Made by a program: the position numbers and the translations under genes | Part shown: positions 8,079 through 57,781 of the stretch, piece by piece | Layout of the letters: each line of letters opens with the position of its first letter | Position numbering within the stretch: the first letter of the stretch is position 1 | The notes under the pieces: generated by a model | Told to the model about the DNA's origin: nothing | What the model saw: the letters and a program-made list of their open reading frames with translations, nothing else | The model's database searches: none | Assembly (NCBI RefSeq): GCF_964204865.1 | Contig: NC_135255.1 | Coordinates: forward strand, 13,359,135-13,423,134 | Reading direction: 5' to 3' | DNA from: Styela clava | Taxonomy: Eukaryota > Chordata > Ascidiacea > Stolidobranchia > Styelidae | Length of the DNA stretch: 64,000 nt

Positions 8079-8110
8079 CATGGGAAACAAGTTTTTTGCA
8101 GTTTCCCATG
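8079..8110. promoter_or_regulatory. Paired CSL/Su(H)-like inverted sites upstream of L1
   Basis: CATGGGAA and its exact inverse TTCCCATG are separated by 16 bases. Each half matches the CSL (RBPJ/Su(H)) consensus YRTGGGAA. The head-to-head layout and spacing are those of the Su(H) paired site that responds to Notch. The site lies about 310 bp before the L1 start codon and about 100 bp before a TATA-like word. Conservation is seen directly; the Notch link is inference. Confidence 0.45.
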
Positions 8111-8205
8111 GCAATTCAAAATACTTCATCACAAAAAGAGTACTCCTTCAAATTTGTTGGTTGGAAACATTTCAACTTCTGAAAGCTGAACGAATGCAAC
8201 AATTC

Positions 8206-8217
8206 AATATAAATACT
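8206..8217 (+). promoter_or_regulatory. TATA-like element of the L1 promoter
   Basis: AATATAAATACT occurs here and at 29148 and 55187, upstream of L3 and L5. L6 has a weakened form near 57890. It lies about 200 bp before the start codon. An AG directly before GCGTTAAATATG suggests a 5'-UTR intron or a trans-splice acceptor in between. Confidence 0.35.
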
Positions 8218-8878
8218 TTGCTTGCTACAGTAGTACAGTAGGCTTCTTAGCGCAGTAGGTTGGCATGCATAGATGTATTTGCCTCAACTTTATAAATAAC
8301 AGTTAGTAAGATAGAAATTTCATTGAGATGGAATTGCAACTTGATTAAATTTAGACAGAAATGTATGCTAGACTGCATTTGAGTTTCAATTCTAATGTTT
8401 GCTTTAAACAGGCGTTAAATATGAAAAAGGGTATACTATATTGTATGTTTTTGAGCATTCAATTGCTCGTCAAACCAAGTATATTGCAATCAAAGAATTT
8501 GCATGCAAATTGAAAATGTCAATACAGAAGAAACGTACCCAATTCCACCACAACAAAGTTCACAGGGTGTTCCGGGCAAACGAGGACCACCTGGTGAAAT
8601 TGGACCAAAAGGATCACAGAGGCCCAGAGGACCAAAAGGAATTGTTGATTATGAAAGAATTAATGCAGCAATAGAATCAGGTAATTTAAATTAATATTGG
8701 CCGTAAGCATCAGTGGGGCTTGTACAAAGCCTTGTTTGAAGTGGAAAATATTGCAAAAATTACAGTTTTCCCTACATAAGAATATATTGAAGTTTACTTC
8801 TTATTGTATATATATATAGTTTACATCTTTTTAAATGATAATATAATGACTGTCAGTATGAATGGACTTGGTATAGAC

Positions 8879-9652
8879 CAGGGATAGCGAACCACTGACC
8901 CGCGGGTCACAAAGTGACCCACCGCGTTTTATTCTTGACCCGCCAAGGCACTAATAAAATAAAAATGCTAACATATCACTGATGAGAAGTGATAAAACCG
9001 GTCTTAAATTAATCTAACAATAACTAAACTATTATAATGTACCGTCAGTTGGTCATGACTGCGATCGCTCATATTTAAGTTGTTAATTTCCGGGCCGGTA
9101 TGGTAATTTCCTAAACCTCTAATCTTGGGCGCATGTGTGCACCGTTCGTTATTCAACTATTGGCTCTGACATAACAATGCAATTGCTACTTTGCATTTTA
9201 TTAGTTTCTCGCCTACAATGCCGTTGAGAAATCAAAATATTCCAGACTTGAAATAAAAACCGAGAAATCTGAAACAACAATGGGGCAGTGTAAAAGTGCC
9301 TTAATGTGGTTGAAAGCTGATCTAAAAATATAAAACTATCAGAGTGGAATTCCCTCCAAACTCTTTGGATCCGGAAAAGAATTTGCCGCATCGTCCTAAG
9401 CGTTTTTGGCGATTCATATGCGTGTTTTCGTACTCTGATTCCATAAAATCGAGTGAAATAAAAAGTCCCCGATTAAAGTGATGCATAAGTGAAACCCAAA
9501 ACTACAACAACAGCAACAGAAGCTTATAAGATTTGTTTCAGAAGTTTCTCATAGATACAAACATTGATTAAATATATGTGACCCAATCTCTTCTGTTCCG
9601 CGATAAAAATATAATTTTTGACCCATTCATTGGAAAAGGTTCGCCATCCCTG
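8879..9652. mobile_element. Non-autonomous hAT-like element in L1 intron 1
   Basis: The termini CAGGGATAGCGAACC and GGTTCGCCATCCCTG form a 15-bp inverted repeat with one mismatch, followed inwards by GACCCGCGGGTC-rich sequence. ATAGAC flanks both sides (8873-8878 and 9653-9658). L3 carries a single ATAGAC at 30139-30144 with no insert: a clean empty site. The insertion is therefore younger than the lectin duplication. No transposase ORF is present. Confidence 0.75.
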
Positions 9653-10086
9653 ATAGACAAAACTTAATAATGGGGTTTGTGCAGAACATCCAAGTATGTT
9701 ATGTTGTGAACTTTATTCACTCATTCATTGGTAAAATTAAAACCATGTATCACTAATTTTGATGCTTTTATAAAATTTAGTTTGTTTGATTTGTATTATT
9801 ACTTCAGCGACCCATACTTTTATATTTAATCCATTGCAGCGATAAATGATCTGCGGACAGAAATGGAAGAGAAAATGAATAATGTCAACAAAACCATGAA
9901 TGATCTTCAGCAGAGGATGGATAATAGTCGACTAAACTATCAATTATGTAAAACTGTTTTGTTAACATTACATGATGAATTTTTTGTCACAGAGTTCTCA
10001 AACATAAAATTAAATGCAAATTGGAAACACAAATAAGATTCGAATCTATAATTCCCAACAAATAGAACTAAATGTAATTTTCATTT

Positions 10087-10205
10087 TCTAAATAAAATAG
10101 TCAACTGCGATGATTCAGAATCAAGAATTTCCAACATTAATATAAATTATTTTCAAACCGAAATACCTAAATTTTTCATTTTCTAAATATAATAGTCAAC
10201 TGCGA
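10087..10205 (+). repeat. 95-bp direct duplication of the exon 3 acceptor in L1
   Basis: The words leading into exon 3 (TTTTCTAAAT, AATAG, TCAACTGCGA) occur at about 10083-10110 and again at 10178-10205, offset 95 bp. The upstream copy is a decoy acceptor followed by a sequence that does not continue as lectin exon. L4 (37146 and 37241) and L6 (59399 and 59494) share it; L2 and L5 do not. Confidence 0.7.
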
Positions 10206-10507
10206 AGTCTTTTACAAGAATAATTGTTATCGGATGGAACTTCGCAAAACCAAAATGAATTTTGATCAAGCAACACAAGCATGTAGAGATATTGGTATGA
10301 ATATTGGATACATTCAAGATGAAACACATTACCAAAAAATAGCAGAGTTAGTCAGATCAAAATCAACATCATCTATAGGATACTGGACAGGACTATTGTA
10401 CAAAAACTCAGTGAGTATTTAAATTTGATTCATAACGAATATGGTGAACCAGCAAATATTTATCATTTCTATCACATTAAATTATCATTGACTTATCTCG
10501 GATTAGG

Positions 10508-10822
10508 CTCAGAGCATAGTGCCAAGCATTAGGAATACGCTTGCCCCAGCACCTCTGATTACCCTGCGTGGGTTGGATGGTCCGATCCTGTGTGGGATAA
10601 CTATGTACAAGATGATTGATAGACTCCTCGCTTCCATAGGGTGGTTCACATAACCACTGGTCAGTTACAGCTTCCTTCACCGTCAAGTTCATGCATCAGA
10701 AAACTGGCTAACTAATCCCATACCCAACATGACTGGTACCCGTACAAGAGGCTGCGGTTCCCCATATCATTATTAAGTCGCCTTATCGTCTCACCCTTGA
10801 TACATATGTAACTCCTATCCTA
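10508..10822 (+). repeat. tRNA-derived SINE in L1 intron 3
   Basis: The tRNA-like head (GTGCCAAGCATTAGGAATAC, then TGCGTGGGTT) and the body blocks of the full copy at 16510 are present. The A+T and CCTATCC tail runs to within a few bases of the exon 4 acceptor. All six lectin copies carry it at the same position. Confidence 0.75.
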
Positions 10823-11407
10823 TCTATTTCAGCAACTTGTGACACTTTCTGGAAATCCATCACTATTCACTAAATGGTATCCGGGTACACCCAATAGTGT
10901 CGAGCAATACAAAAATGTGTACATTTATGTCAAGAAAGATACAGGAAGTGTAAACCACGGCATGTTTAACTACATTCCAACAGCCACACGACCTGGAGTG
11001 TTATGTCAAATCATGTATACTTAAGATCATATTAACAAGCATTGTCTACAGCTTTCTTATTTGTTAACTTCTCCGATCTCACAATACTACAATGCTAGTT
11101 ATATTGTCAATATTCAAATTACATAAATCGTATCGTGCACCTAATTACAGAATTCCATTTATTATTATCATTTCATGTTTTGATTATTATCTTGCTTGAT
11201 ATCAATCCTCCATGAGATGACTATGGTCAAAATTAATATTATATAAATAATGAAAAATAAAAAAAGTATGGTATATATAAAAGATAGAAATGGGAGAAGC
11301 ATATTTGATTATTAAAGCAGTTGTTTTGTGGAAAACCGCAAATTTCCATTTTATGACAGTTGAAGGATTAATTAACATTAACAAACAGACAATTTTTCTT
11401 AATACCA

Positions 11408-13126
11408 TTAATTCTTTGGAAGGGAATTTGATGAAAAAACAATGTCATGCGCACTCTAAAATAAAGGAAATTGATAACCACTGAAGTATAAAGAGCTACT
11501 GAGATTATAAGAATTTTGATGTAGAATTCAGTGTTGGTGCATGTGTATTCAAAATATAATGCAATAAACGTAATAAAGGATCTATAATTAGAAAACATCT
11601 CAATACCATACCTGTGTGGCAGCTAAGCTGTCTCCCCTCTTCACCAAAACATCTGCCCACATCATAGAAATATCAGTCACTTTCTTTTTCATCTGTCTTA
11701 TCGTTTCCTCATTTATTGACATTTTTTGTATCGCAGTAGTTATAGTTTTACACAAAAAACTGTAAATCCAAGAGAAAATTTTTTGTCTCCAATGAAAATG
11801 ATGTTATAAATATAACTTTGCCATTGACAAGATAGAGTTTGTAAAACCTCATTTGTCTTTTCTTATTTTTTCTAACAAAAATGGAAATGAGATAGACAAG
11901 AAGAAATTGAAAACTCAGTCAAACCTTTCCTCTTATTACTAGAATCTTATTATTTTCAGGAACAAATTATTAAAGTTACAAAATTACTGACATTACATTT
12001 TGATAAATGTGGAATGAAAATTTACATTTCGTTTTAAATTTGCGATAATTTTTAGAATAGAAAGACATAAATCAGAATGATATGTTTAATTTGTTACTGT
12101 ATATATGATACTATGTAAATAAAATCATTCAGTTATTCAGTTGTTTTATTCGTCGATCATGGGGGAATGCAACATAGAATTCAATGAAAGGAATAAACAA
12201 GTTATAAAGTACTGGTTAGGATGAAGTTAAAAAAATAGAGGATTCTCAATTCTTACTTGCAACTATTAGCAGCGTCCAATTTTTGCTGAGATATTTCCAA
12301 TCGCAATTTTTCCCGAAGTAATTGTAACGCTGATAATGGATCTTCAGTTGATGAAGAATTCTTGATAGCAACTGAATCAATCATAATTATAGTAAAATTC
12401 GGTGTAACTTTGAAAAATCAGAAAATACAAATGACAGAACTGCCCTAAGGAGTGAAGCCATTGAATGGATCAAATATCTAACTGCTAAGGGTTAGGAACA
12501 TGATTGTCACCACTCTGATTACATGTGTAAGTTCGCAGGTTTGAATCCTGTGAGAGATAATTATGAGCGAAAAAATGACACGATTACTCGCTGCCATAGG
12601 GTGGTTCATGTGACTGCAAACTCATCCCATACCCAACATGGACCGGGAACTGGACAAGAAGCTGTAGTTCACCATGTGATAAAGCAGTCTTAATGGCATT
12701 CCCCTCTGCCAGAATAAATATGTGAATCATCTCCTATGATAATACCTATGATATAGTCCTAATTGCCATTATATCAAAATTCATACCCTACAGACACACT
12801 CTTATTCTTATATTTTCAAATTTTATCTGTGCGAATTTTTCAGTCTCAACGAAAGAAAATATATTTTCATATGTATTTGGAATGGTAAATTATTTAGTTT
12901 GGCCATCCCGGACAATCGCCGTTATCCGAGTGAACAGGTCATAAAGCGTTGAGAATCACCCTCAATGGGCATATTCGATAGTCTATTAGGCTACTCATCG
13001 TCAAGGTCAGCATGCAGGTTAGAATAGAAATTTTCATCAAGTTTATTCCTTGAATTAGAGTCAAGCTGAACTTCTAATCCTGGATAAACTTTGATCTCGA
13101 GATAATTTCGAGCATTGCTTGCAGAG
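11408..13126 (-). pseudogene. Gene Q copy 2, 3' part, broken splice donor
   Basis: The same four exons as Q1 are present: 12999-13126, 12257-12371, 11612-11759 and 11408-11455, all with open frames. The donor after the 128-bp exon has changed from GTGAGT to ATGAGT (C to T at 12998 on the plus strand). Unrepaired read-through gives DDE and then a stop two codons later. Q4 shares this change. The product is unknown, as for Q1. Upstream sequence to about 14600 is retained, so this copy shows more of the 5' side than Q1. Confidence 0.55.
12470..12725 (+). repeat. tRNA-derived SINE in the Q2 intron
   Basis: Orthologous to the SINE at 1355-1625. The sequence just before it (ACAGAACTGCCC through GAAGCCATT) matches the uninterrupted intron of Q4 and Q5, which places the left boundary at about 12462. 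Confidence 0.7.
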
Positions 13127-14453
13127 CTAAAAAGTGACAAAAAATGTTCAAATACGTATTTATTTCATTACAGAAACTCAATTAGGAGAATACCGGATTC
13201 AGATTCCGATGTTTATTCTTGGTGTGCATGAAACATTGCAGACAATTTTTTTTTAGACTATTTGAGATGGACAGACATTGATAAAAACTTGGTATTTTTT
13301 AGACACTTGCACCTTCCACTGCCTACAAGGCCCTGTAGAAGCAGCCACTAATAACTCAAAATACTGTTATATCGTTATCTGGAAAGACCCAAATCTTTTG
13401 GTTTGGCATTGCCTACACATTTTATGATATTCCGGGTGAGATGGACTTATGCGGCATTAATCCAAGATGTTAAATATTATTAAAGTAACCATGAAACCCT
13501 TCCTAATCATATTTTGCTACATTACCTCATATTTGGAAAAAAGCACTGTGGAAGAGTATTGAAATGCAAGACGTTTAAATATGCCAACCAAAGATGATTA
13601 AGATCAGTCGACGTCAAACATTTATTCAAAGAAGATGTAGAAAAGGTGGGAAACTTCTGACATTGTGGAGAGAATTCTTTTACTGTTACCTGTAGAAATG
13701 TTTTCGAATGTTAGAGGGACAAAAGTCGTAAAATAAGGTCAGTCTAGATAAGGGTTATTCAAAATGAACCTTCCGCTCCACTAGGGGACCCCAGAAAGTT
13801 TCCCTCTGGGCAAAAAGCACTTTAACTAGGCTTCATTCACGATGACAGATCTAGAATAACATTCCAAGTTATTGAGTAAAATCTTGTCTGATATTATGCA
13901 GAAAATTTGGAATTGAAAAAAAAAAAAAATTTCTTTTGAAATATTTTGCTCTTGGTAACGAATTATACATATGGATAGCTATACTATTTCTCATTGTTGT
14001 TATTCTTGTTGACGTTATTTGGAAAAAATTGCCAGTACTGCTTGATTTCTCATTTTTAGTACTTGGATAGAAAAAGTTGCAAATTTGCTATTGCTTTTAT
14101 TTTATTTCTCAAATTTTTCTATGAGACCAATATAATTACGAAAAACTTTTAGGGCTTTAATTAAAGGGGACACTTTTTTATTCCATCACACTGGTCTTTT
14201 TTGTCATAATTGGTGCTCTGAGGTCTTAAAATCCTCGTACCGTGACCTTTGATGCACAGAGGGTCATATAGAAATGGTTATCTGGCCAGATTGGTTCAAC
14301 AGTTATTGTTAATATATACCTTCACCATTGGAGCATTAATAAACATCGTTAGTCAAATGAACTTAACTTATTGAGACAATGTAACTATTTATTACAAAAT
14401 TCAAATGATAAGAAATATACTTGAAAATGATTAATTTGATCGAAAAAATAATT
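13127..14453. other. Q2 upstream intronic region, no exon recognised
   Basis: This is conserved with 33492-35100 and 62183-63500 as duplicated sequence, but substitutions and small indels are spread evenly and no frame stays open across copies. It contains A-rich and T-rich runs (near 13915) only. Confidence 0.5.
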
Positions 14454-14570
14454 CTTACTTTCAACAATGGTAAAATCTTTAAGAATTTGGCGATTATAAT
14501 AATTGAAGTTGAGTTCGTTGCAACACTGTTTGCAAAAGCCATCTTGAAGTAACATCTGGTGATTAACCAT
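14454..14570 (-). other. Candidate Q exon with a Cys-x2-Cys-Cys motif
   Basis: On the minus strand a frame starting MVNHQMLLQDGFCKQCCNEL runs into a GTAAG donor at about 14454. Q5 (about 63523-63640) keeps the frame; Q3 has a stop in it (about 35203). Its phase does not join directly to the 128-bp Q exon, so an extra exon would be needed between them. It could equally be chance. Confidence 0.25.
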
Positions 14571-14689
14571 TTACAGGGATTCCACCTTATAAAGAGAAAG
14601 AATATTGATAACAAACAACAATAAAATTTATGAAAAGGTCCCAAAGTCAAAAACAAAGTAAAAGAATAACGTAAAAATCACCTTCAACA

Positions 14690-15580
14690 TTATTCAGCAA
14701 GTTTGAAATGAGTTGATCGTAAAGAAATTCCCTTTTTACAACATTTAAATCCTACGTCGGAAGCTGTAAAACAAGTCAAACAATCTTGTGGCATTATGGA
14801 ATTAGAGGGGTAGCAAACCAACTCCTGGCAACTACTTGACCAATAGAATGCAATTTGTTCAAATTGGTTCATACTGTTCCCCTACCTTGCCTGTGTCCTC
14901 CAGGGATCTTGCTTGTGTCTCAACATTATTCTTAATTTTTATCAGTGATCTTCCCCACAGCTTCAAAATTGTTCATGATAATCTTCATGATAGCGACAAG
15001 TCTCCGGATGTGCTTGAGTCCAGAGTGAACACTAAAATACAAAAAAGTAGCGAATTGATGAAACTTAGAACTAACATTGAATGTTGAAAAATCAAAAACT
15101 ATGCTATTGCGGTAGATGCTGTATCAGCTCAGGTTTTTGTCTTCAATTTCAACTTTGTACATGGTTTACTTTGTCTTGTTCCAGTCTCATTTGCAATATG
15201 GAATTGTAGCTTGGGGATCATCTAAGAAAACCTTTCTACGTCGCATCGAAATAATTCAAAACAGCGCTATGCGTGCTGTACTCTTCACTGAACCAATGTC
15301 AAAAATAAACCCCCACTACCATAAGATGCAACTAATCAAAATGGCAGATATTTATAAAAGCGAGCTATTAAAACTCATGCACCAGCACCATAAAACTGCC
15401 TACTGCATTTTGTCAAACAAATCAGTTGCCAGTGTACACTCTTGTGCAACTCAGTCCGCTGCGTATAGCCCATACTATGTGCCTCGCTATTCCCCCAATC
15501 AGCCAATTGTTCTAGATTTATATGGAATGACTGTTATCTTTATTTGTCCATGTTTTTATAATATGCTATCACCATAATAA
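14690..15580 (+). mobile_element. 5'-truncated LINE reverse-transcriptase fragment 1
   Basis: The plus-strand frames resemble the C-terminal half of a CR1/L2/jockey-type reverse transcriptase. They include HYGIRGVANQLLA, then FLIFISDLPHS, and after frame breaks SHLQYGIVAWGSSKKTFLRR and QNSAMRAVLF. Several stops and shifts break it. It lacks the 5' half and the endonuclease. The 3' end runs into short TCACCA repeats, as LINE tails often do. The minus-strand ORF at 14690-14872 is only its antisense shadow. Confidence 0.7.
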
Positions 15581-15650
15581 TTTTCATCAACACTGTGGTT
15601 TACTTTGTTTCCAGTATTATTTGCTCCCGTCTGACAGAGCAAAATAACTC

Positions 15651-16101
15651 GGGTCTAGTATAGTTTAGTACCACAGGTACTTCCAGTGGGCGTAGCATAA
15701 CGATTTTTGCATATGTTATTCCTAACCCCCACCTGACTCTGCCATCCTAAAATTACGTCAATGCGACGTCGCCATCACGTCATAGGTCTCGAAGTATAAT
15801 TACGATCGCCCGAAATGACATCTGCGCCGTCGATAACAAACTCGCTAAAGCCGGCAAACTCTCTCCTATCGTGATCGTTGTGACGAGAAAACGAGAGAGA
15901 TAGCTTGCTCGATTTCGGGTGCTCGTCTGCGCGTTTTGGACGACCATTCGCATACTTTGGTGGGCATTATTACGCCACTGTGACGTCGAAATGACGTAAT
16001 GTTTGGGTGACATAGTCAGGTGAGGGTTAGGATTGACATATGCAAAAATTGTTGAGCCAGGCCAACTAGAAGTGCATGTGGTACTAAACTATACCAGACC
16101 C
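15651..16101. mobile_element. 451-bp MITE with long inverted repeats
   Basis: The ends GGGTCTAGTATAGTTTAGTA and its near complement open inverted repeats of roughly 120 bp each, around a GC-richer core with several GACGTC-like words. The 8-bp duplication AATAACTC flanks it exactly (15643-15650 and 16102-16109). The paralogous positions 36332 and 41802 carry AATAACTC once with no insert. Eight-base duplications fit hAT-type transposition. There is no coding content; the minus ORF at 15780-16013 lies inside the element and looks spurious. Confidence 0.85.
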
Positions 16102-16509
16102 AATAACTCCAGTATGACTTTTTCCCACAAGTTTTTTACCTCAATATCCTCAAGATTCCTTAATAGGCTATTCATCATCAATATATAAATTTGCATAAAT
16201 GTTGTATTTTTACCCAAATAGTATGTGCACCTTGCAAGAGTCATAGCACAAAATAACTTTATAGCTTATGAACTTTTCCAATAACTGAATAAAGGCAAAC
16301 TTCATTTAATATTCTGTTACCTTTAATACTGTAATAGTCAATGTTCCATAACAGGCTAATCATCATTGTATTATTATATTCCATATACGTTGTTTAATAA
16401 TTTTCCAATAATATGTGTTCCTGGCATTGACATTTTTCTGCATAAAATCCATATTATGTATTTCGAGTTCAACTGTTGCTGCGGGGAATCCCCATGTAGT
16501 TTGTAGTGG

Positions 16510-17757: not shown

Positions 17758-17769
17758 TAGGCATCGATG

Positions 17770-24784: not shown

Positions 24785-26115
24785 CTAATATGATGATAAT
24801 ATATATTGTTTAAGTTTGGAACGAAATTCTGAGTTCGATTTTGAATTTTTGATGTCATCGGGTAGGGAATTCCAAGCTTTTGGTCCACATACTGCGATTG
24901 ATTCTTGTGAAATACTTTTACTGACAAATGGAATAAAAAAATTATCTTTATTTCTGCTGTTTGAATTTGGGTTTGCTTGGAACAGGCTGTTCAGGCTGGA
25001 CGGAAGCTCTCCAATGTGACAAGAGAACATCATATTACATAGTTCGAATTTAGCTAAATCCACAACTCGTAGTAGCCTATGCTCTTTAAATAAGTCATCA
25101 ATTTTTTCGCGATTACCTCTATGAAAAACTCTTCTAATAAAGCGATTGCAAACACTTTGAATTTTTTTGAGAATGGACGATTGGCGATGAACATAAGCTG
25201 AGGCACAATAACGAATATGGCTTTCTATCAGAGAGTGGTATAGAGATATTAAACAAGATGTATTTAAGTAGTTGGCTATTTTCGTAATGGCACTAAGAGA
25301 CGACCTTGTTTTCGATAGAACCATATTGGTGTGTTGTTTCCAAGACAATTTATCATCGATCATTACACCCAGAAAGCGAGTCTGATTAACTCTTTCTATA
25401 TTTATTCCATTTAATTCCAAATTTTGTTGCAGAGTTGGACACTTTTGCTTCGGCGTGCTAAATATCATATATTTAGTTTTATCGACATTAATAGTGAGTT
25501 TGTTCGCAGACAACCAAGCTTGAATATTTTCTAAGTCGGTATTTGCCTTGGTCAAAAGTTCATGCAAGTTTTTGCCTCGAAGATATGGCGTTGAGTCATC
25601 AGCAAAAGTATGATATCAGAGTGAAGAAGAGAATTCGGAAAGTCGTTAATAATGATTGAAAAACATAATGGAGCCAAAATAGAACCTTGTAAAGTACCTA
25701 CAGTCAAATTACAGTATGTGCTAGATGCTACATCATTGTATATAACTACTTGTTTCCTTCCTGATAAGTAGCTTTTAAACCAATTATAACTCTGACCTCT
25801 AACGCCAATATGGTGCAATTTGGCTAGTAATATGTCATGGTCAATACTATCAAATGCCTTGGAAAGGTCCAAGAACATACTGAGAGTATACTCATTCTTA
25901 TCAAATCCTTCTAGAATTTTACTGACAAGCAGGGATGTTGCATGAGATGTTGAATGATTTTGACGAAAGCCAAATTGTTGTGAATAAAAGAAATTTTTTT
26001 GGTCTAGGAATTGGTTGAGTCGTTTGTACATAATTTTTTCTAGAATTTTTGAAAATGCGGGAAGTAAGCTGATCGGTCGGTAGTTTTTTACATCTTTTGC
26101 ATGACGGCCGCATAG
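24785..26115 (-). mobile_element. 5'-truncated non-LTR retrotransposon (jockey/CR1/L2 type), frameshifted
   Basis: Two overlapping minus-strand frames, 25552-26031 (159 codons) and 24785-25567 (260 codons), cover the reverse-transcriptase palm and thumb. Visible blocks are QFGFRQNHST, LDLSKAFDSIDHDILLAKL, FKSYLSGRKQ and GTLQGSILAPLCF. In the second frame they are NQTRFLGVMIDDKLSWK, SLIESHIRYCASAY and PKAWNSLPDDIKNS. The frame breaks at about 25600, where the catalytic Asp-Asp box should be, so the enzyme is dead. Upstream, 26031-26115 continues in another frame. The endonuclease part is missing, as in most truncated LINE copies. It differs from the fragments beside the Q genes. Confidence 0.85.
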
Positions 26116-26654
26116 GTTGCAGTGGCCATACGCTGGTCGTGTATCTAAATATTTCTCAGCGGGTCTGTTCTAGTACACTCGGCAGACTAACATTGATAAT
26201 AATAAAAAAGATTTAACGCCTTTCATATCTATTTTTGTATTTAACCGCTTACTATTAAAGTGTGTAAAGCGTGTCTTAATTTAGCATATCAGTATTTAGG
26301 GATTACATACATTTGGAACAATTGAAGGCCAAATATATTGTAATATTCTTAAATTTGATTGTCCTGGGATATGCCTGTTTAGTATCAAATTTCCAAATAA
26401 ATAATACATTTATAGTAATACATTTACAATCCAGCAATGTGGAAATTCCCACTATTTGAATAAGTATGAAAATAGAATAGGATTCGGTATTCTGGATTCG
26501 ATTCAACTATTCTAGAATAGTAAATTATTCTGTAAGTGGAATTGCAAGTGGATTAATCAAAGCCATATACGTATGCATTCAATTCACTATAAACCAGCTG
26601 TATTGACTGCATTTGAAGTATAATTCTAATGCTAGCTTCAAACAGGCGGTAAAT

Positions 26655-28413
26655 ATGAGTAAGAATATACTATATTGTATGTTTTTGAGCATTCAATTGC
26701 TCGTCAACCAAGTATATTGCAATCAAAAAATTTGCATGCAAATTGAAAGTGTCAATGCAGAAGAAACGTACCCAGTTCCACCACAACGAAGCTCACAGGG
26801 TGTTCTAGGCAAACATGGACCACCTGGTGAAATTGGCCCGAAAGGGCCACAGGGGCCAAGAGGCCCAAAGAGAATTGTTGATTATGAAAGAATGAATGCA
26901 GCAATAGAATCAGGTAATTTAAATTATTATTTATTTGCTATTGCCCGTAAGCATCAGTGGGGCTTGTACAAAGCCTTGTTTCGAGTGGAAGATCATGCAA
27001 AAATTACAGATTTCCCTTTATAAGAATATATTGAAGTTTACTTCTTATTGTAAATATATATATATGCTCTACATCTTTTCATTTGATGATATGAAGACTT
27101 TCCGTATGAATGGACTTGGTATATACAAACTTAATAATGTGGTTTTGGCAGAACATCCAAGTATGTTGTGTTGCAAACTTTATTCACTCATTGATTGAAA
27201 AATTCAAAAAAATAGTGTATCACTAATTTCGATGTTTTTAAATAATTTAGTTTGTTTGATTTGTACTATTAGTTCATCGACCCATTTATATATAACTTAT
27301 TTCAGCGATAAATGATCTGCGGACAGAAACGGAAGAAAAGATGAATAAAACCATGAATGATCTTCAGCAGAGGATGGGTAGCTAATAGTTACTAAACTAT
27401 CAATTATGTAAAACTGTTTTGTTAACATTACATGATGAATTTTTGACGAAGAGTTTTGAAACATAGAATTAAAAGCCAACTAGAAACATAAAAGTTGTTT
27501 GGCAAACATGATTTAGAATCTATAATTCCCAATAAACAGAACTAAATATATTTTTCTTTTTCTAAATATAATAGTCAACTGCAAGTCTTTTATAAGAATA
27601 ATTGTTATCGGATGGAACTTCGCAAAACCAAAATGAATTTTGACCAAGCAACACAAGCATGTAGAGATTTTGGTATGAATATTGGATACATTGAAGATGA
27701 AACACATTATCAAAAAAAGCAGAGTTGGTCAGATCAAAATCAACATTATCTAGAACAGGATACTGGACAGGACTATTGTACATAAAGTGAGTGAGTACTA
27801 GTATTTAAATTTGATTTATAATGAATATGGTGAACTACCAATTCTTTATCATATATATCTAATTAAATTATCATTGATTTATCTCAGCATAGACTCGGCG
27901 GTGTAGAGCATAGTGCTAAGCATTAGGAATATGCTTGCCACAGCACCTCTGATTACACTGCGTGGGTTCGCAGGCCCTATCCCTTTGGGGATAACAATGT
28001 ACGAGATCATTGCTGGACTCCTCGCTTCTTAGGGTGGTTCACATAAATGCTGGTCAATTACGGTTTCCTTCACCATCAAGTTCATTCCTCACAAAACAAC
28101 TAACCCCATACCCGACATGGACTACTAGCCGGATGGGAGGTTGTGGTTCCCCATATGATTATTAAGCAACCTTATCATCTCCCCCTTGATACATATGTAA
28201 CTCCTATCCTATTTATTTCAGCAACTTGTGACACTTTCTGGAAACCCCTTATCGTTCACTAAATGGTATCCGTACAAACCCAACAGTGGTGAGCAATACA
28301 AAAATGTGTACATTTGGATAATGAAAGATACAGGAAATGTATACCAGGGCATGGATAACTACATTCCAACATTCAAACAAGCTGGAGTGTTATGTCAAAT
28401 CATGCATACTTAA
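26655..28413 (+). pseudogene. Lectin copy L2 (collectin-like, alpha type), frameshifted
   Basis: Exons are 26655-26913, 27306-27377, 27575-27790 and 28222-28413. Exons 1 and 2 are intact: signal peptide, GXY stalk (with a Pro-to-Leu change, GVLGKHG) and neck. Exon 3 has two single-base deletions relative to L5, one right after TCAACTGC (27576-27583) and one in the A run near 27712. They destroy the lectin half-domain. Exon 4 is open. Upstream, homology to the other lectin promoters is replaced by the repeat nest, so the paired palindrome is missing. Alpha features shared with L5 are KHGPPG, GPKRIVDYERM and a TFKQAGVLC ending. Confidence 0.75.
27896..28205 (+). repeat. tRNA-derived SINE in L2 intron 3
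   Basis: The tRNA-like head starts at GAGCATAGTGCTAAGCATTA and the tail ends next to the exon 4 acceptor, orthologous to the SINE of L1. Confidence 0.75.
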
Positions 28414-29006: not shown

Positions 29007-29038
29007 TATGGGAAACAAGTTTTATGCAATTTCCCATG
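29007..29038. promoter_or_regulatory. Paired CSL/Su(H)-like inverted sites upstream of L3
   Basis: TATGGGAA and TTCCCATG, 16 bases apart, are in the same arrangement as at 8079. The intervening bases differ from L1 at a few positions while the spacing is kept. The site lies about 645 bp before the L3 start codon. Confidence 0.45.
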
Positions 29039-29147: not shown

Positions 29148-29159
29148 AATATAAATACT
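29148..29159 (+). promoter_or_regulatory. TATA-like element of L3
   Basis: AATATAAATACT, as in L1 and L5; about 520 bp before the start codon because a SINE remnant lies between. Confidence 0.3.
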
Positions 29160-29681: not shown

Positions 29682-31434
29682 ATGAGTAAGGGTATACTAT
29701 ATTGTATGTTTTTGAGCATTCAATTGCTCGTCAACCAAGTATATTGCAATCAAAGAATTTGCATGCAAATTGAAAATGTCAATACAGAAGAAACGTACCC
29801 AATTCCACCACAACAAAGTTCACAGGGTGTTCCCGGCAAACGAGGACCACCTGGTGAAATTGGCCCGAAAGGATCACAGGGGCCCAGAGGACCAAAAGGA
29901 ATTGTCGATTATGAAAGAATTAATGCAGCAATAGAATCAGGTACTTTAAATTAATATTGGCCGTAAGCATCAGTGGGGCTTGTACAAAGCCTTGTTTGAA
30001 GTGGAAGAACTTGCAAAAATTACAGATTTCCGTATATAAGAATATACTGAAGTTTACTTCTTATTGTATATATATATATATATAGTTTACATCTTTTTAA
30101 ATGATGATATAATGACTGTCTGTATAAATGGACTTGGTATAGACAGAACTTAATAATTGGGTTTGTGCAGAACATCCAAGTATGTTATGTTGTGGACTTC
30201 ATTTACTCATTCATTGGTAAAATTAAAACAATGCATCCCTAATTTTGATGCTTCTATAAAATTTAGTTTGTTTGATTTGTATTATTACTTCAGCGACCCA
30301 TACTTTTTTATTTAACCCATTGCAGCGATAAATGAGCTGCGGACAGAAACGGAAGAGAAGATGAATAAAACTATGAATGATCTTCAGCAGAGGATGGGTA
30401 ATAGTTACTAAACTATCAATTATGCAAAATTTTTTTGTTAACATTACATGATGAATTTTTTGTCAAAGAGTTTTGTCTCAAATATAAAATCAAATGCAAA
30501 CTAGAAACTTAAAAATTGTTCGACAAATATGATTTAGAATCTTAGAATTCCCAACACAAAATTAATTTTTTTTCAAACAGAGATAAATGAAATTTTCATT
30601 TTCTAAATATAATAGTCAACTGTGATGTCCTTCACATGAATAATTGTTATCGGATGATACTTCGTGGAACCAAAATGAATTTTGACCAAGCAACACAAGC
30701 ATGTAGAGATATTGGTATGAATATTGGATACATTCAAGATGGAACACATTATCAAAAAATAGCAGAGTTAGTCAGATCAAAATCAACATCATCTCTTACA
30801 GGATACTGGACAGGACTATTGTACATAAACTCAGTGAGTATTTAAATATGATTCATAACGAATATGGTGAACCAGCAATTTTTTATCATTTCTATCACAT
30901 TAAATTATCATTGACTTATCTCGGATTAGGCTCAGAGCATAGTGCCAAGTTTGAGGAATACGCTTGCAACAACACCTCTGATTACCCTGCGTGGGTTGGA
31001 TGGTCCGATCCTGTGTGGGATAACTATGTACAAGATAATTGCTGGATTCCTCGCTTCCATAGGGTGGTTCACATAACCACTGTCCACTGGTCAGTTACAG
31101 CTTCCTTCACCGTCAAGTTCATGCATCAGAAAACTGGCTAACTAACCCCATACCCAACATGACTGGGTTCCCCATATCATTATTAAGTCACCTTATCGTC
31201 TCACCCTTGATACATATGTAACTCCCATCCTATCTATTTCAGCAACTTGTGACACTTTCTGGAAATCCATCACCATTCACTAAATGGTATCCGGGTACAC
31301 CCAGAAGTGGTGAGCAATACAAAAATGTGTTCATTTATGTCAGGAAAGATACAGGAAATGTATACCAGGGCATGGATAACTACATTCCAACACACAAACA
31401 ACCTGGAGTGTTATGTCAAATCATGTATACTTAA
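29682..31434 (+). CDS. Lectin L3: secreted collectin-like protein, 246 aa, intact
   Basis: Exons 29682-29940, 30326-30397, 30616-30833 and 31243-31434 have GT-AG borders and phases 1, 1 and 0. Residues 1-22 form a signal peptide. C22 and C27 could link chains. Eight GXY triplets span 49-73 (GVPGKRGPPGEIGPKG and on). Residues 87-110 form a charged amphipathic neck. A C-type-lectin-like domain covers 111-246, with C113-C121 as the N-terminal hairpin, C140-C241 as the long disulphide and WTGL at 175-178. The usual EPN/QPD position is TPR (202-204), and no WND motif or inner disulphide pair exists, so calcium-dependent sugar binding is doubtful. The expected product is a trimeric extracellular recognition protein, plausibly innate immune. 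A SINE fills intron 3. It is the beta member of the L2/L3 pair. Confidence 0.85.
30935..31232 (+). repeat. tRNA-derived SINE in L3 intron 3
   Basis: Orthologous to the intron 3 SINE of the other lectins, with small internal deletions near 31165; its tail again abuts the exon 4 acceptor. Confidence 0.75.
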
Positions 31435-49240: not shown

Positions 49241-52200
49241 TTAAGGAGTTTTGGGCAGAAGACATCCTGCATCCATCTGTAACCATGATGAACATCGAAT
49301 CTTTTCCGGAATAAAATCTTCAGGTTTCGCATATGTTTTCAGAGTGGTGAGATACTGCAGTAACAGAGAAAACGTATATTAAAACAAATAAATCGTAACA
49401 ACATTGTGTAAAATGGAAAGGAAAATAGAAAGAAGATTAACGAATCAAACAATCCACAATGTCAGTTCTTCTTGCGGTTTCAATACAAGACATGTTGAGT
49501 AATTTCCGAAGCAATCAAAACACCTCCAACAGGCAATGCAAAGAGTGATTTCAAATATCTGAAGTTACTATAATCTTTATCTGCCTCTCTTAACACAATA
49601 CTCTATCCTGTTGTTACTAAACTGTTCTGATGAAGAGACTAAATACAAGTCGATATGAATATTTAACCTGAAGTTTTAGATTGGATGTTTCCTAAATATG
49701 CATGTTAATATTCGATAATAGGAAGAAAAAAATCCAGGAGCCCTAAGTCTGCTGAAACTATACTGAAAACAAATGAATATGAGTTTCTTATTACTTTATA
49801 ATAGGACATTCCTAAAATAGTGTGAGAAAGAATTTTGAAAGAAAATTTCTTTATTTTTCTTCAGAATGCAAAATAATAGGAATGTCCATTGAATTCAGAC
49901 ACGACGAAGCCCGGGTTTCAGGGCTATAACATTCAGAAAACGCAATTTACTTCATTAAAATATTGTGAACAAATTGTACAAATTCAAAAACTTGAAGATT
50001 CCAGACTTCAAAGTCAAAAATAAAAGAATGACGAAATTCAAGCAAAGGAATAAATTAACAGTTTAAATGATTTGGTTTCTGCAGACGAACTACTTAACTT
50101 TTATGCTTTTGTGTCGGTGAATCCATATTCACTTAATGCAAGAATGCTGTAGAAGAGTGGAGATAACTATCCTAGTGATTCAAAAGTCTTGATACACACT
50201 AACACAAATATATTTCTATAACGTTTCGTCTGACATTGAACTTGAAACAATGATGACAGGCTTTCAAATCAAACTGAAATGCTAGTCTTTCAACCAGCAA
50301 GATTATTAAAACTTGTGGTTTATCGCTATCAAAACAAAGCAGTTTTACAATCCAACATCCTGACTCTTGATTCATTGAAATAAAAAATTGCATCTGATTT
50401 CAGTACTAGTTTAAGAGAATAAACATTTAACTGTGGCAAATACAAGACACATTCAAAAATCTCATTCTATTAAAGCTGGAAATTTTCTACCTGCATCTTA
50501 AGGACATCTGAAATTAAAACTCCCATAATGGCTAGTTAATCTGAAAGTATGAAAATATGACCCACAAAAAACTTTAAAATGAATGCAATCAAAATAAATC
50601 GATTTTACGTACATTTGCAAGGCCACATGGTCCCAATTTTTGTATGAAATTATCACTTTACAAATATAACAACTTTCTAATTGCACTCACCTGTTGCCCA
50701 GGAAACAAAGTTTAAAACATTTTACCAGATAAGAAAAATTTATATTTACATCAGTCCACAGCTCACGAGAATACGGTACTACATCCACAGACCGCCGGGA
50801 CAGATGTATTGCCTAAAATAGGGATTATTTTCAATAAACATAATTGTCACTTTGTCAATTTCACAAAATCAAAACTTGATACCCGTACCTTTGATATTCT
50901 TCCACGAGAGAAAAGTGACGAGACCGATCTAGTGAATTTTGTGAAAAAAAAAATATAGAAATTATTAAGTTCCCTCGTGAAACTTTTATAAATCAATTAA
51001 AGAAGGGATTTAAACATTTAACATCTATTTACTTAGCTTTACATACAACTCGTAAGAAAAGATGTTGATTAACATAAAACTTGAATAGAAAATAAATCAA
51101 ATATTAATCAAAAGATTATTCAAGATTTACTACATTTTCCATATCATCATGTTTTGACACAATGTAGTTGAAGTTATCCTCCATAATATGGAAACGATTG
51201 TTGAGTCATCTCCAAAACTGAGAAAATGTCGGCAAGCCCTGGAATATTAAAAAAAAATTCCATAAAATTTGGAATATCTGAGTTAATGTTCCCGAAACCT
51301 TGATCTAAAATGCTGATGAAAGTACAGTCAACATTAAAAACCAAACAAATATTATTTTTCCATTACAAGATAATTCACAAAGACTGTGTATATCAAATAC
51401 TAATTCTAAATGCCTATGAAGAACGCTAAAGCTAAAATATTTCTACAATAACATTTCCAAATTTGGTATACCCTAATGGTCCCTTGTTTCATTGAAAGAT
51501 TGTTGTTAAAGAAACCCATTTACTTAGAATATAAATTCAAAAATTCACCAAATCATATACAGATATTTATAAACTTATTTAAATAGTCGTTGCACACTAG
51601 TTGGCGCTCCTGAAGTATGTGAACCAAATTGGCAGACACCGGAACGTAGTACGTGTAGGCTACTAGGTTAGGGTTAGGCCATATTTTTATGCCAATTTTT
51701 CTTATCTTAGTTCTACTACGAGTTCAGGGACTAGGCAAGTGACTCCTATACTATGTACCTAAAATTATGGCTTAGCCCTAACCTGGTACACATACTACGC
51801 TCAAGTGTTTGCCATTTTGGTTCACATACTACAGGAGTACCTACTAGTTTACCTTCCAACAAATCACCATTTATCCACTTACCTCAATAACAGTGGAACA
51901 TTATACGGCATCAGATGAGTAAGAAAATTATAAGCAGTTGATATGTGTTGCCTTGTATGAAAGCATGATAAGTAGATAGACGCAACCTGAAGTTTATAAA
52001 ATAGTAAAATCAATATCATCATGTAAATACTGTCGTTATCAAAAATCGTTCGGTCTACGCATTATTATATTTTATATTCAAAATATTTAGTATCCTAAAT
52101 GAGTTTATTATCATTAAGCAAAAAAGCAAAATCACAAAAATCTTTATTATTCCGAGAATTAGACATAAACATCTATGAAAAATAAAAAGATATCAATTTT

Positions 52201-54506
52201 AATAGGCAACTGTACACTTACTATTATTATGTATCATGTTAGAATCTGGTAACCTAGAGTACATCATCGCCAATAAGTTCACATTATATTTCTACCTGAT
52301 TATGAAATGTGTAGTCAGAAAATCTGGCATCAGAGCTGAGCAATTCATCAATGGCTAAATCTGGAGAACAAGTTGTTATGCATCGACGAATAACTGCAGT
52401 AAAATTCTTTAGCCATATTTGACGCATTTTCACAGTTATTGTTGTTGATTCGACTAGTTTTGAAGCAAGATCCTGACGATATAGAAGATATCTGTAAAGA
52501 AAATTTGATATAATAAAAACGGACTCGGGATATTTTTTTTTCCAAATGGGAGACGATTTATGTAGTAGTAGTACTTACATATTTATCCTGGAGGAGAGAA
52601 AAGAATAGGAATGGGACGCTTAGCACAACGCGCCACTGGATATCATCAACATGTCACTTAGACCATTTTTAATTTAGATTCTCAGGCATGGTTGGAAACA
52701 TTATCTAGCAATTGATTAGTTTTTTTGTTGTGTTTCCGAAACTTGGGTACAAATTAAACAACTGAATGATTATTTTGCCTTCCTAAAAGTTTTAATCAGT
52801 TACAAAGATCAAAAATGAGTCCTGAGAAGAGAAACTAAAATTAGCTATTAATACTTTTGCATTTTACAATGATGGTATCAAGAAGTATCCAAATAATTAT
52901 TTCGAGGAAAATGAATTATTTGAATATACTTTTTTTTTTATTATTAAAAAAATTTGCGAATCTGATTATAAAGTTCCACCTTAGCCATATTTGTCTTCTA
53001 TCATTTTCATCACCCACATCCACAATTGCCTTTTCATAATAATCCAGTATAACGTTGACAGATTCGCTGGATAAATCGAGAATTACACTGAAAAGAACAT
53101 GATACACCATAAAGCATTGTTCAAAAATGAATAGAATCCAAATAAGAATTCTATTACGATTTCCGTAATCACAAACATTGATTGAGTGGCACATCAGGAT
53201 ATTTCTGGATCTACAGGGTGTCCATAAAGTCCCTTTATGATTTCAATTTTGTTACAAAGTCAGTTCTAAATTATTTGTTAGATTGTTTGTCTGTCAGACA
53301 CTTTCGTATGTTATGCAATATCTCACGAAAGCAAGGTAGAATCTACTCCAAATACTCCAAAACCGCAGATCGATAAGTCGATGGTCTCCGATCGCTAGCT
53401 AGTTTAATACATCTGTAAGGGCCGAAACAATTTATGACATCGATAAATACCATTTGCAATATTAAAAAAATTAAGACACCATATATATCTTAACACTCAT
53501 AATTTCAACAGCCTTGATCTATTTCACTTACATGTAAATCATCCATAAATATGCTTTGTTCTTCCCAACAATTTTCCAACTAATTTCCGGTAAAAGAGAA
53601 AGATGTTTGTCAGTCAATGAATCCGATAATCTCAATAAATAGTGAAATAATTTCTTCAATTCTGATAAATTAATCACATCTATATCTGAAAAAGAAACTA
53701 AAATGAAACAACAATTGAAGAACTAATTTTATGATTCGAATCAGGGTTACGCAACCTTTAATACAGAAGGGGTCAGATCCAAACAACCGCGAGACGCACC
53801 TTCATTTACCATAGAAGTTTAGGTTAGCAAGCCCATGACATGTGTTGTTCGCTTCACACAAGCTTGGGCTTGTAGCACCATAATCTATAGGAATAGATGA
53901 TAAGTTGCAATGCAAAGCAATTGGAATTACAAGCACATATCATATTAAACTAAATTGAACACTCGTTCCACGTGCCACACATTTCAAAATTGGCACTTCC
54001 CCGCTCGAGCACACAACTTTTCCTCGTAACTAGTATGTAAGAGTATAACTAATAGGGTGAGTAGTTGAGTGTAATCCTCACATCTGTAATTGCAGTCTAA
54101 TTCTTTAAAGAAATATTATGCTTAGGATCTAGTTGATGATAACCATTTCCTTTCATATTTTGCCCAAAATTTTATTCATGAATCAGTCTGCTTCGCTTCC
54201 AAGTGAGTGAGAATGCACAACGTATAATATAGCTTCAAACTGCTTTTACTTTTAGTTTAATCAATATCATTTAACATTATGTTTATTACCGTAATTAATT
54301 AATATAACAATTATATTGCAAACGGTACATCTTAATTTGATACAAACTACAAAACTTTTACCTATTTTCAAATAAGCTGAAGCACAAGTTTCAAAATACA
54401 GAAGTGCAGCATCAATGTCCGATGATTCTTGATTTAATTGAAACAAAGCTGCTTCATAACATAGCTTTGCATCAGATGGATTTTCAGTCACAGCTTCTTC
54501 AAACAC
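49241..54506 (-). CDS. Gene Z copy C: HAT/TPR-repeat protein, longest copy
   Basis: Minus-strand exons are 54362-54506, 53532-53685, 52980-53087, 52296-52491, 51883-51986, 51134-51238, 50889-50928 and 50750-50812, plus the probable 50662-50690. Phases agree through the first eight, with lengths 145, 154, 108, 196, 104, 105, 40 and 63 bp, identical to Z-A. A terminal exon at 49241-49354 has AATAAA close to its stop, but the exons between 50662 and 49354 are not resolved. The protein has repeated helical pairs with QIWL and ELW signatures of HAT repeats, suggesting an RNA-processing scaffold (ZFC3H1- or NRDE2-like at most). The frame before 54506 does not continue in Z-A, so real 5' exons are missing. 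This copy is probably a passenger fragment; transcription is unknown. Confidence 0.5.
53215..53486. mobile_element. Deleted copy of the Z-intron MITE
   Basis: Same AGGGTGTCC end as 6645-7106, with the right end changed to GACACCAT and about 190 bp lost inside. The flank before it has about 55 bp that are missing in Z-A. Confidence 0.5.
53720..54260. other. Insert in the first Z-C intron, transposon-like
   Basis: This sequence is absent from the same intron of Z-A. It begins near CAGGGTTACGCAACCTTTAA, a hAT-style end, and has no ORF of note. The right terminus was not found. Confidence 0.35.
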
Positions 54507-55017
54507 CTTTGAAAAAGTAATATTAAATAGATTACAATTCTTTTTGCCTGTTTGTTTATCCATGACTGTTATAATATCCCATTAAAAACATTCATCAATA
54601 AATATGTATTCACAAATAAATAATATTACAATGCAAACCTTAAGGATTATTTTGTCAAGATTAGAATATTCAACTTGAAAACTTTCATGTAGCCTAGTCA
54701 AAATCATATTACATTACTATTACATATCTAATATATTAAATTTCCTGATTTGAAAACTACCACTAGAAAAATTTTTCTTTTCTTTTACTTTTCGAAAAAA
54801 AAAAAAATTTTGATAATTCAGTCGGTGCCTTGTTTTGATGGTTCAGTTGTAGTTACAAAAAAACATGATAAATAACTACTTTCAAGTCGAAAAATATTAT
54901 TCAAACACACCGACGATTGTTTTTGATCCTTCATTATTTCCTCGCACGAAAAGGTCAAAACTTCTATTCACAAGTCACAACAATACCAAAAGTGCAGAAA
55001 TTTTCATAGCAAAATAG

Positions 55018-55049
55018 CATGGGAAACAAGTTTTTTGTAATTTCCCATG
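55018..55049. promoter_or_regulatory. Paired CSL/Su(H)-like inverted sites upstream of L5
   Basis: CATGGGAA and TTCCCATG, 16 bases apart, about 350 bp before the L5 start codon. The alpha-type gene therefore shares the element with the beta types. Confidence 0.45.
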
Positions 55050-55186
55050 ACAACCCAAAACATTCCACAACAATTTTCATACACTTTCCCAAGATAATTC
55101 AAAACACTCAACAAAAATAGCATTTTTAGTCGTTTGAATTTAGTGGTTGAAAACAAAACAGAATCTAAAAAAGAATGCATCATCCC

Positions 55187-55198
55187 AATATAAATACT
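55187..55198 (+). promoter_or_regulatory. TATA-like element of L5
   Basis: AATATAAATACT, about 205 bp before the start codon, at nearly the same distance as in L1. Confidence 0.35.
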
Positions 55199-55402
55199 TG
55201 CTACAGTACGTTGCTTAATGTAGTAGGTTATGAAGCATAGATGTATTTGCCTCTATTTATAAATTACAGATTGTAAGATGTAAGTGGAATTGCAAGTGGA
55301 TTAATCAAAGCCATATACGTATGCATTCAATTCACTATAAACTAGCTGTATTGACTGCATTTGAGTTATAATGCTAATGTTAGCTTCAAACAGGCATTAA
55401 AT

Positions 55403-57167
55403 ATGAGTAAGGGTATACTATATTGTATGTTTTTGAGCATTCAATTGCTCGTCAATCAAGTATATTGCAATCAAAGAATTTGCATGCAAATTGAAAATGT
55501 CAATGCAGAAGAAACGTACCCAATTCCACCACAACGAAGCTCACAGGGTGTTCCAGGCAAACATGGACCACCTGGTGAAATTGGCCCGAAAGGGCCACAG
55601 GGGCCAAGAGGCCCAAAGAGAATTGTTGATTATGAAAGAATGAATGCAGCAATAGAATCAGGTAATTTAAATTATTATTTATTTGCTATTGCCCGTAAGC
55701 ATCAGTGGGGCTTGTACAAAGCCTTGTTTCGAGTGGAAGATCATGCAAAAATTACAGATTTCCCTTTATAAGAATATATTGAAGTTTACTTTTTATTGTA
55801 AATATATATATATGCTCTACATCTTTTCATTTGATGATATGAAGACTTTCCGTATGAATGGACTTGGTATATACAAACTTAATAATGTGGTTTTGGCAGA
55901 ACATCCAAGTATGTTGTGTTGCAAACTTTATTCACTCATTGATTGAAAAATTCAAAAAAATAGTGTATCACTAATTTCAATGTTTTTAAAAAATTTAGTT
56001 TGTTTGATTTGTACTATTAGTTCAGCGACCCATTTATATATAACTTATTTCAGCGATAAATGATCTGCGGACAGAAACGGAAGAAAAGATGAATAAAACC
56101 ATGAATGATCTTCAGCAGAGGATAGGTAGCTAATAGTTACTAAACTATCAATTATGTAAAACTGTTTTGTTAACATTACATGATGAATTTTTTGACGAAG
56201 AGTTTTGAAATATAAAATTAAAAGCCAACTAGAAATATAAAAGTTGTTTGGCAAACATGATTTAGAATCTAGAATTCCCAATAAACAGAACTAAATATAA
56301 TTTTCTTTTTCTAAATAAATAGTCAACTGCGAAGTCTTTTACAAGAATACTTGTTATCGGATGGAACTTCGCGAAACCAAAATGAATTTTGACCAAGCAA
56401 CGCAAACATGTAGAGATATTGGTATGAATATTGGATACATTGAAGATGAAACACATTACCAAAAAATAGCAGAGTTAGTCAGATCAAAATCAACATTATC
56501 TAGAACAGGATACTGGACAGGACTATTGTACATAAAGTCAGTGAGTACTAGTATTTTAAATTTGATTTATAATGAATATGGTGAACTACCAATTCTTTAT
56601 CATATATATCTAATTAAATTATCATTGATTTATCTCAGCATAGGCTCGGCGGTGTAGAGCATAGTGCTAAGCATTAGGAATATGCTTGCCACAGCACCTC
56701 TGATTACACTGCGTGGGTTCGCAGGCCCTATCCCTTTGGGGATAACAATGCACGAGATCATTGCTGGACTCCTCGCTTCCTAGGGTGGTTCACATAAATG
56801 CTGGTCAATTTCGGCTTCTTTCACCATCAAGTTCATTCATCACAAAACAACTAACCCCATACCCGACACGGGACTACTAACCAGACGAGAGGTTGTGGTC
56901 CCCCATATGGTTATTAAGCAACCTTATCATCTCCCCCTTGATACATATGTTTAACTCCTATCTTATTTATTTCAGCAACTTGTGACACTTTCTGGAAATC
57001 CCTTATCGTTCATTAAATGGCATCCAAGTAAACCCAACAGTGGTGAGCAATATAAAAATGTGTACATTTGGGTAATGAAAGATACAGGAAATGTATACCA
57101 GGGCATGGATACCTACATTCCAACATTCAAACAAGCTGGAGTGTTATGTCAAATCATGAATACTTAA
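55403..57167 (+). CDS. Lectin L5: secreted collectin-like protein, alpha type, 246 aa, intact
   Basis: Exons 55403-55661, 56054-56125, 56323-56540 and 56976-57167 have consistent phases and no stop. The architecture is as in L3: signal peptide, N-terminal cysteines, GXY stalk, short charged neck, lectin-like domain. It differs by KHG in the stalk, by loss of the last stalk glycine (GPKRIVD), by Arg-Ile at the neck end, by LSRTGYW before WTGL and by SKPNSGE at the usual EPN site. The inner disulphide and WND are also missing. Exon 1 stays open through its donor for 36 more codons into intron 1, as in L2, so a short intron-retention product is conceivable. It is followed in tandem by L6. Confidence 0.85.
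56650..56960 (+). repeat. tRNA-derived SINE in L5 intron 3
   Basis: Very close to the L2 copy, with a shared divergent B-box region (GGGTTCGCAGGCCC). Confidence 0.75.
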
Positions 57168-57749
57168 GATCATATTAGCAAGCATTGTCAACCGAGTTCT
57201 TTTCGTTAAGTTCTCTGATCACACAATATTACAATGCTAGTTATATTGTCAAATTACATACAGCATATGGAGCACCTGATTACAGAATTCTATTTTATTA
57301 TTCTTTTATGATTCGATTATTATCGTGCTTGTTATCAATTACGTTACCTGCGATGTGACTATGGTCAAAATTAATATTGAATTGTGTTTTTTGTTGGTAT
57401 TGGTGACAAATATATAAATAAAAAAAAAGGATATTATTGTCGGCATATATAAAAGATAGAGATGGGAGAAGCATATTTGATTACTAAAGCAGTTGTTTTG
57501 TGGAAAACAGCAAATTTCAATTACATATCAGTCAAACAGACGATTATTCTTAAAAACATTAATTATTCAGGAGGAAATTCGATCTGAGCAACTTCATGGA
57601 TACTCTGAAATAAAGGAAATTCGAGATGCAAAATACTATTTCGAACTTACAAATGACTGTTTTCGGTATTTCATCATTTTTTAACACGAAAATGTCAAGT
57701 GTTTTATTGAAAACAACACCAAAAGTGCGGAAATGTCATAGCAAAATAA

Positions 57750-57781
57750 TATGGGAAACAAGTTTTATGCAATTTCCCATG
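57750..57781. promoter_or_regulatory. Paired CSL/Su(H)-like inverted sites upstream of L6
   Basis: TATGGGAA and TTCCCATG, 16 bases apart, the same as upstream of L3; about 710 bp before the L6 start codon. Confidence 0.45.

Follow-up and report, generated by a model that had tools for sequence, protein, structure and literature searches.

Most of the known paired Notch sites belong to developmental regulators. In this work we have investigated a 32-bp palindrome that precedes lectin genes in a 64-kb stretch of the Styela clava genome (C6:13359135-13423134 of the 376.6-Mb assembly, here called the window) and that we regard, judging from sequence and at a probability of about 0.68, as a promoter-proximal Notch/CSL paired site in a lectin array. 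Among the closest described systems is the sequence-paired site (SPS), with a gap of 16 nt between the two sites (15-17 in vitro); Notch family members prefer 16 nt, according to the available part of PMC7685452. As regards the letters of such sites, the accessible part of another study states that CATG(G/A)GAA is functional in several CSL-regulated enhancers and that position 2 of the motif is tolerant (PMC4176381). Tunicates have collectins and mannose-binding lectins in their hemocytes, and the collectins rise in inflammation, as described in the available part of a review of tunicate lectins (PMC5465252). How does the Styela locus compare with these systems? The sequence-only reading from which we started had reported YATGGGAA and TTCCCATG facing each other across 16 bases at four places in the window (Table 1), and all four were found on the plus strand with zero mismatches. 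An exact search of the window for TGGGAA-N(5-34)-TTCCCA found these four places and no others (mean in shuffled sequence, 0.06), and the gap was 16 in all of them. The same reading had taken the middle to be variable, which proved mistaken: just three of the 16 middle positions differ among the four window copies, and all 25 copies found in the genome share AACAAGTTTT (positions 8-17). Tandem and segmental duplications, with an identity of ~76-96%, abound in the window. Since the copies at 29007 and 57750 share one duplicated 4.2-kb block (92%) and those at 8079 and 55018 are paralogous promoters, the four copies cannot be counted as four independent observations; what tests the element is therefore its conservation relative to the flanks and its behaviour across the genome.

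A genome search for the whole element, allowing up to three mismatches, found 25 places, all on the plus strand and all within 336 kb (C6:13,266,683-13,602,993), and its reversed control found none. None of the 25 copies lies outside the lectin array; the search was ungapped, so that more diverged or gapped copies would escape it. With the first-exon peptide as the query, at least 93 matches were obtained in the genome (150 of 251 candidates scored). Close lectin copies, defined by at least 87% identity along 82 or more of the 90 residues, number 26, every one within the same 336-kb stretch, which also holds two 34-residue pieces. The palindrome stands 203-739 bp 5' of 23 of these 26 first exons and 3.1 kb 5' of one other (copy 13313768). 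The palindrome at 13319178 has no exon of its own, the next palindrome unit coming before any exon. When the middle is left free, the pattern TGGGAA-N16-TTCCCA occurs at 56 places genome-wide (7 in the reversed control; 11.3 expected from base composition); the array holds 20 of them, and all 20 have the middle ACAAGTTTT. Might the palindrome belong to a dispersed transposon? Other pairs of the same layout do share single middles at many places, in the manner of repeat families (CCATTATCCAAATTA, AAGTATAACATAGCAAT), but the array element was found in a single orientation and nowhere but in the lectin array, and the transposon-like scatter over hundreds of unrelated places, a possibility that had been raised earlier, was not seen. 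We have rejected a transposon origin, as hardly credible, on the ground that no copy was found outside the array at three mismatches or fewer. As a separate observation, a second lectin array is present on the minus strand at C18:16033607-16082504, where eight first-exon relatives follow each other at a very regular spacing of ~7.0 kb; the palindrome was not found there.

For comparison with the flanks we aligned the promoters of the 20 copies in which both cores are intact, leaving out the five with a damaged core. These 20 promoters form five subfamilies. Flank identity between subfamilies is 42-72%, gaps counted, and within subfamilies it is 85-99%, apart from the shortened copy L021, whose flanks are 26-35% identical to those of other subfamilies; the subfamilies are separated by ~0.25-0.9 changes per column when branch lengths are summed. 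With one representative for each of the five, 27 of the 32 palindrome columns are invariant and there are no gap openings. Of the 100 columns on the two sides, by comparison, 67 and 54 are ungapped, of which 26 and 24 are invariant, and 14 and 8 gap openings were counted there. The palindrome is the best conserved 32-column stretch of the alignment, and the runner-up, 3' of the TATA-like word, reaches 24 of 32. The distance from the palindrome to this word, TATAAATAC, drifts between 97 and 139 bp in 18 of the 20 aligned copies, two being without the exact word. The gap between the half-sites is 16 in all 25 copies of the ungapped search, in agreement with the constant spacing claimed at the outset. 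These figures bear on the view that the palindrome has no function and is one inherited string copied through recent tandem duplication. The many duplications in the window and the likeness of the flanks within subfamilies (L021 excepted) would suit it; between subfamilies, however, the flanks are far less alike and 27 positions and the length have nevertheless stayed fixed, and we therefore disfavour this explanation as very unlikely. As a proof of the dyad we had also considered the paired change CA..TG to CG..CG. It was dropped because both ends are CpG, at which separate deamination is possible, and because the flank tree (19 flanks, L021 left out), in which 8 of 16 inner branches are weakly supported, is midpoint-rooted and leaves the direction of the change unsettled.

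The TGGGAA cores are head to head in all 25 copies. That the halves stay constant, as had been claimed, holds for 20 copies with both cores intact; in the other five, one core is damaged in one half. Over the 25 copies the letters that never change are positions 8-17 and most of the core letters, and the variable middle positions are 18, 21 and 23. Most variation falls on the outer letters, which correspond to positions 1 (C/T) and 2 (A/G) of the CSL motif: the left half begins with C in 19 copies and T in six, followed by A in 19 and G in six, and in the right half the last letter but one is T (19 copies), C (3) or A (3). The outer two letters of each half thus vary more than AACAAGTTTT does. 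In three copies the pair is exactly the high-affinity CSL pair CGTGGGAA-N16-TTCCCACG, and most copies have CATGGGAA half-sites. Both halves read YGTGRGAA in three of the 25, the left half only in another three and neither in 19, where motif position 2 is A and, in some, a core is damaged. Ikaros sites, too, have TGGGAA as their core, and an Ikaros-type zinc finger dimer or some other protein with a liking for this word might read the dyad instead of CSL; in keeping with this, the TG..AG copies have right halves that spell CTTGGGAA on their own strand. The fixed head-to-head gap of 16 nt and the C/T followed by G/A in front of TGGGAA nevertheless suit CSL, and we know of no comparable spacing rule for Ikaros. 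Literature joining Ikaros, RBPJ, TGGGAA and Notch was not found, which carries little weight either way, and we think a reader of this kind improbable.

Strict pairs are rare in this genome. The form GTGRGAA-N16-TTCYCAC occurs at six places in 376.6 Mb, where base composition predicts 2.8 and the reversed control has none; half of the six are in the array, a region making up 0.09% of the genome. GTGGGAA/TTCCCAC pairs number three, all in the array, with 0.32 expected. A strict pair on C5 ends 463 bp 5' of the presumed ATG of a ficolin-like gene on the minus strand and 58 bp 5' of a TATAAA. There follow an exon with signal-peptide-like and collagen-like parts (Pfam Collagen, 2.1e-4, under the curated cut-off) and, farther 3', Fibrinogen_C frames (1.2e-21 and 0.015), which we infer to be parts of one ficolin-like gene; the best solved relatives of the former of these two frames are tenascins, then ficolin-2. 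The C5 pair keeps the arms and the gap and has a middle that differs from the array middle, and its promoter shares only matches of 11-24 bp with the array promoters (best E 0.010 in the printed part of the comparison). The other two strict pairs outside the array were dropped as support: that on C1 sits in a 53-residue open frame which looks coding by eye and has no Pfam match, and that on C9 has no recognised gene within 1.5 kb on either side. At C9:21802011, 45 kb away from the C9 pair (C9:21847122, L062), there is a distantly related collagen-lectin exon.

The relaxed form RTGRGAA-N16-TTCYCAY was found at 54 places (11 in the control; 25 expected), and of the 50 listed, 17 belong to the array and 17 stand singly, the others forming two repeat-like families of 10 and 6. 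One of the single pairs, at C8:19731583, reads ATGGGAA/TTCCCAC on the strand of a HES gene, whose bHLH exon it precedes by 3.7 kb and whose orange exon by 5.5 kb. A pair is thus near one of three Hairy-orange matches, and the other two have no nearby pair among the 50 of 54 matches listed. The odds of such placements, both noticed post hoc, are roughly 0.0008 for C5 (three sites and an assumed 100 lectin genes, with 1 kb for each) and 0.0018 for C8 (22 sites, 17 on a recount among the 50 of 54 listed, and three genes, with 10 kb for each). Relaxed pairs on C13 and C14 were not retained as support; one middle recurs at six of the listed places, and the two that were read, L064 and L065, have the appearance of ATGGG-rich repeats by eye. 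Two further observations concern repeats. At C14:12456492-12540513 five RTGGGAA-type pairs recur every ~21 kb, as if there were one per large tandem-repeat unit, with a related copy at C13:14237449, and a repeat-like family on C3, C4 and C13 (10 listed places) mimics the layout of a CSL pair, reading RTGRGAA-N16-TTCYCAT with the middle AAGTATAACATAGCAAT or one close to it. The genome also encodes a CSL DNA-binding domain, to which three LAG1-DNAbind exon matches without stops correspond at C18:7200839-7201918. A second copy of this domain, at C14:12347724-12348770, is largely one long frame with three stops and resembles a decayed retrocopy.

We consider a Notch/CSL pair the best explanation of these data because of the head-to-head cores, the constrained 16-nt gap, the CSL-like tolerance of letters, the three textbook copies and the recurrence of such pairs 5' of a ficolin-like gene and in the neighbourhood of a HES gene. 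The paired-CSL proposal of the sequence-only reading was strengthened in these respects, and also by the rarity of strict pairs and the presence of a CSL domain; what had to be given up is the middle as a mere spacer. Could the main reader then be another factor, bound to the invariant AACAAGTTTT and the letters following it, with the TGGGAA arms auxiliary or part of one long composite motif? Positions 8-17 surpass the outer letters of the arms in constancy, also in the 20 of 20 array copies found with the middle unspecified, and the middle is asymmetric, with one and the same orientation relative to the gene among all copies found. On the other hand, the two arms mirror each other at a distance of exactly 16, in three copies they make a perfect CSL pair, and the C5 pair keeps arms and gap around another middle. 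We find a composite site of this kind doubtful. A GAAAGT hexamer is known between CSL sites; the literature yielded no useful passage on it, and it is absent from the middle of the array palindrome.

Several observations weigh against a Notch/CSL pair. Motif position 2 of the left half is A in 19 of 25 copies, although G is preferred there; a tested site with A at this position, AATGGGAA, showed intermediate binding and low activity, as reported in the accessible part of PMC4176381. According to the same study weak sites had similar activity in paired and parallel layouts, which argues against pairing being specially required where the letters are of this kind. Four damaged-core copies (L045, L047, L049 and L050) still precede open first exons, and an intact pair is therefore dispensable for an open exon. 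A simple SPS does not need a constant middle, yet the middle here equals the halves in constancy. The palindrome is missing at two of the 26 close first exons, 13353311 and 13385789 (the window exon at 26655), and was found at none of 65 distant first-exon relatives on other chromosomes (30-62% identical). Outside the array, TGGGAA-N16-TTCCCA is likewise in excess (36 of the 56 places), partly in repeats. The strict pairs there number three, against a chance expectation of 2.8 genome-wide; because this count equals the chance level, only their locations inform. Finally, the ficolin-like and HES cases were picked out post hoc, and the distance of the C8 pair was counted from the bHLH exon, the start of the HES gene not having been located.

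Within the window each palindrome stands 5' of a collagen-like first exon on the same strand, as the phrase "upstream of four lectins" had implied (Table 1). The exon behind the palindrome at 8079 is broken, and this lectin copy may be a pseudogene because its frame (8421-8691) is split and contains one TGA. The number of such first exons also had to be corrected to five, the additional one lacking a palindrome promoter; its similarity to the other lectin copies starts at 26531. On the minus strand, 5' of this additional exon, there are two reverse-transcriptase frames at 24785-26169 (RVT_1, 7.8e-28 for one and 1.4e-4, under the cut-off, for the other). Pfam Collagen (5.1e-5) and Lectin_C (5.1e-4) were matched in separate exons, both slightly under the curated cut-offs; collagen-like and C-type lectin exons follow in order 3' of most palindromes and may form one gene. 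The promoter at 57750 is without the exact word TATAAATAC. In a scan of the window for structural RNAs and tRNAs, no Rfam match at the gathering score and no tRNA were found.

Table 1. Palindromes, TATA-like words and lectin first exons in the 64-kb window (window positions)
Feature	Position	Strand	Remark
Palindrome copy CATGGGAAACAAGTTTTTTGCAGTTTCCCATG	8079-8110	+	window and genome pattern search
TATA-like TATAAATAC	8208-8216	+	97 bp 3' of the 8079 palindrome
Lectin first exon (signal-peptide-like and collagen-like part)	8446-8691	+	split frame, one TGA
Lectin first exon, no palindrome	26655-26924	+	fifth first exon; best upstream match 17/32
Palindrome copy TATGGGAAACAAGTTTTATGCAATTTCCCATG	29007-29038	+	window and genome pattern search
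TATA-like TATAAATAC	29150-29158	+	111 bp 3' of the 29007 palindrome
Lectin first exon	29682-29951	+	open frame
Palindrome copy CATGGGAAACAAGTTTTTTGTAATTTCCCATG	55018-55049	+	window and genome pattern search
TATA-like TATAAATAC	55189-55197	+	139 bp 3' of the 55018 palindrome
Lectin first exon	55403-55672	+	open frame; C-type lectin exons next at ~56322 and ~56976
Palindrome copy, 32 letters identical to the 29007 copy	57750-57781	+	pattern search
Lectin first exon	58489-58758	+	open frame

If the palindrome is a Notch/CSL pair, CSL would occupy both halves, idling or repressing in the absence of a signal. On Notch activation two Notch intracellular domains would pair across the 16-nt gap, and their pairing would switch the lectin genes on cooperatively. 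As CSL alone leaves the invariant and asymmetric middle unexplained, a second factor is predicted, which would bind AACAAGTTTT and add cell-type specificity. Differences at motif positions 1 and 2 (CG, CA, TA or TG) would give the copies different strengths. Tentatively, one may go further and imagine that Notch directly drives sugar-recognising innate immunity: ~24 collectin-like genes and the ficolin-like gene would each have acquired a dimer site, and the pair strengths of the subfamilies (CG/CG, CA/CA, TA/CA, TG/CT and one damaged core) might let the level of Notch set which lectins are made and how many. Should the pairing by CSL be true, the lectin repertoire would be directly under Notch, each gene having a pair of its own that has outlasted a strong divergence of the promoters. 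We know of no lectin example of an SPS, and no Notch-lectin link of such a kind was found among the titles and abstract openings listed from the open-access literature.

The predicted lectins of the array resemble the tunicate hemocyte collectins and mannose-binding lectins in domain make-up, namely a collagen-like part and a C-type lectin domain (PMC5465252, available part). One cellulose-synthase match in the genome, barely above its cut-off (26.6 against 24.7 bits), would suit a tunicate. Because tunicate hemocytes have collectins, blood cells are a sensible place to look for this regulation and no more than that; in the available main text of the same review the word Notch is absent. CATG(G/A)GAA, as given in the accessible part of PMC4176381, matches the half-site letters of most array copies; there these sites are described as motifs, whereas in the array they form both halves of a fixed pair. 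A close likeness is to the SPS of Hes1 and the engineered TP1 pairs (PMC7685452, available part), which also consist of two CSL-type sites placed head to head at 16 nt in a promoter region, and whose CGTGGGAA half-site is common to three array copies. The array differs from them in that it serves tandem lectin effector genes, has mostly CATGGGAA halves and keeps a strongly conserved middle, and its 25 related pairs, each sitting in a real promoter, would be a natural series for measuring how the letters of the half-sites tune the response to Notch dimers.

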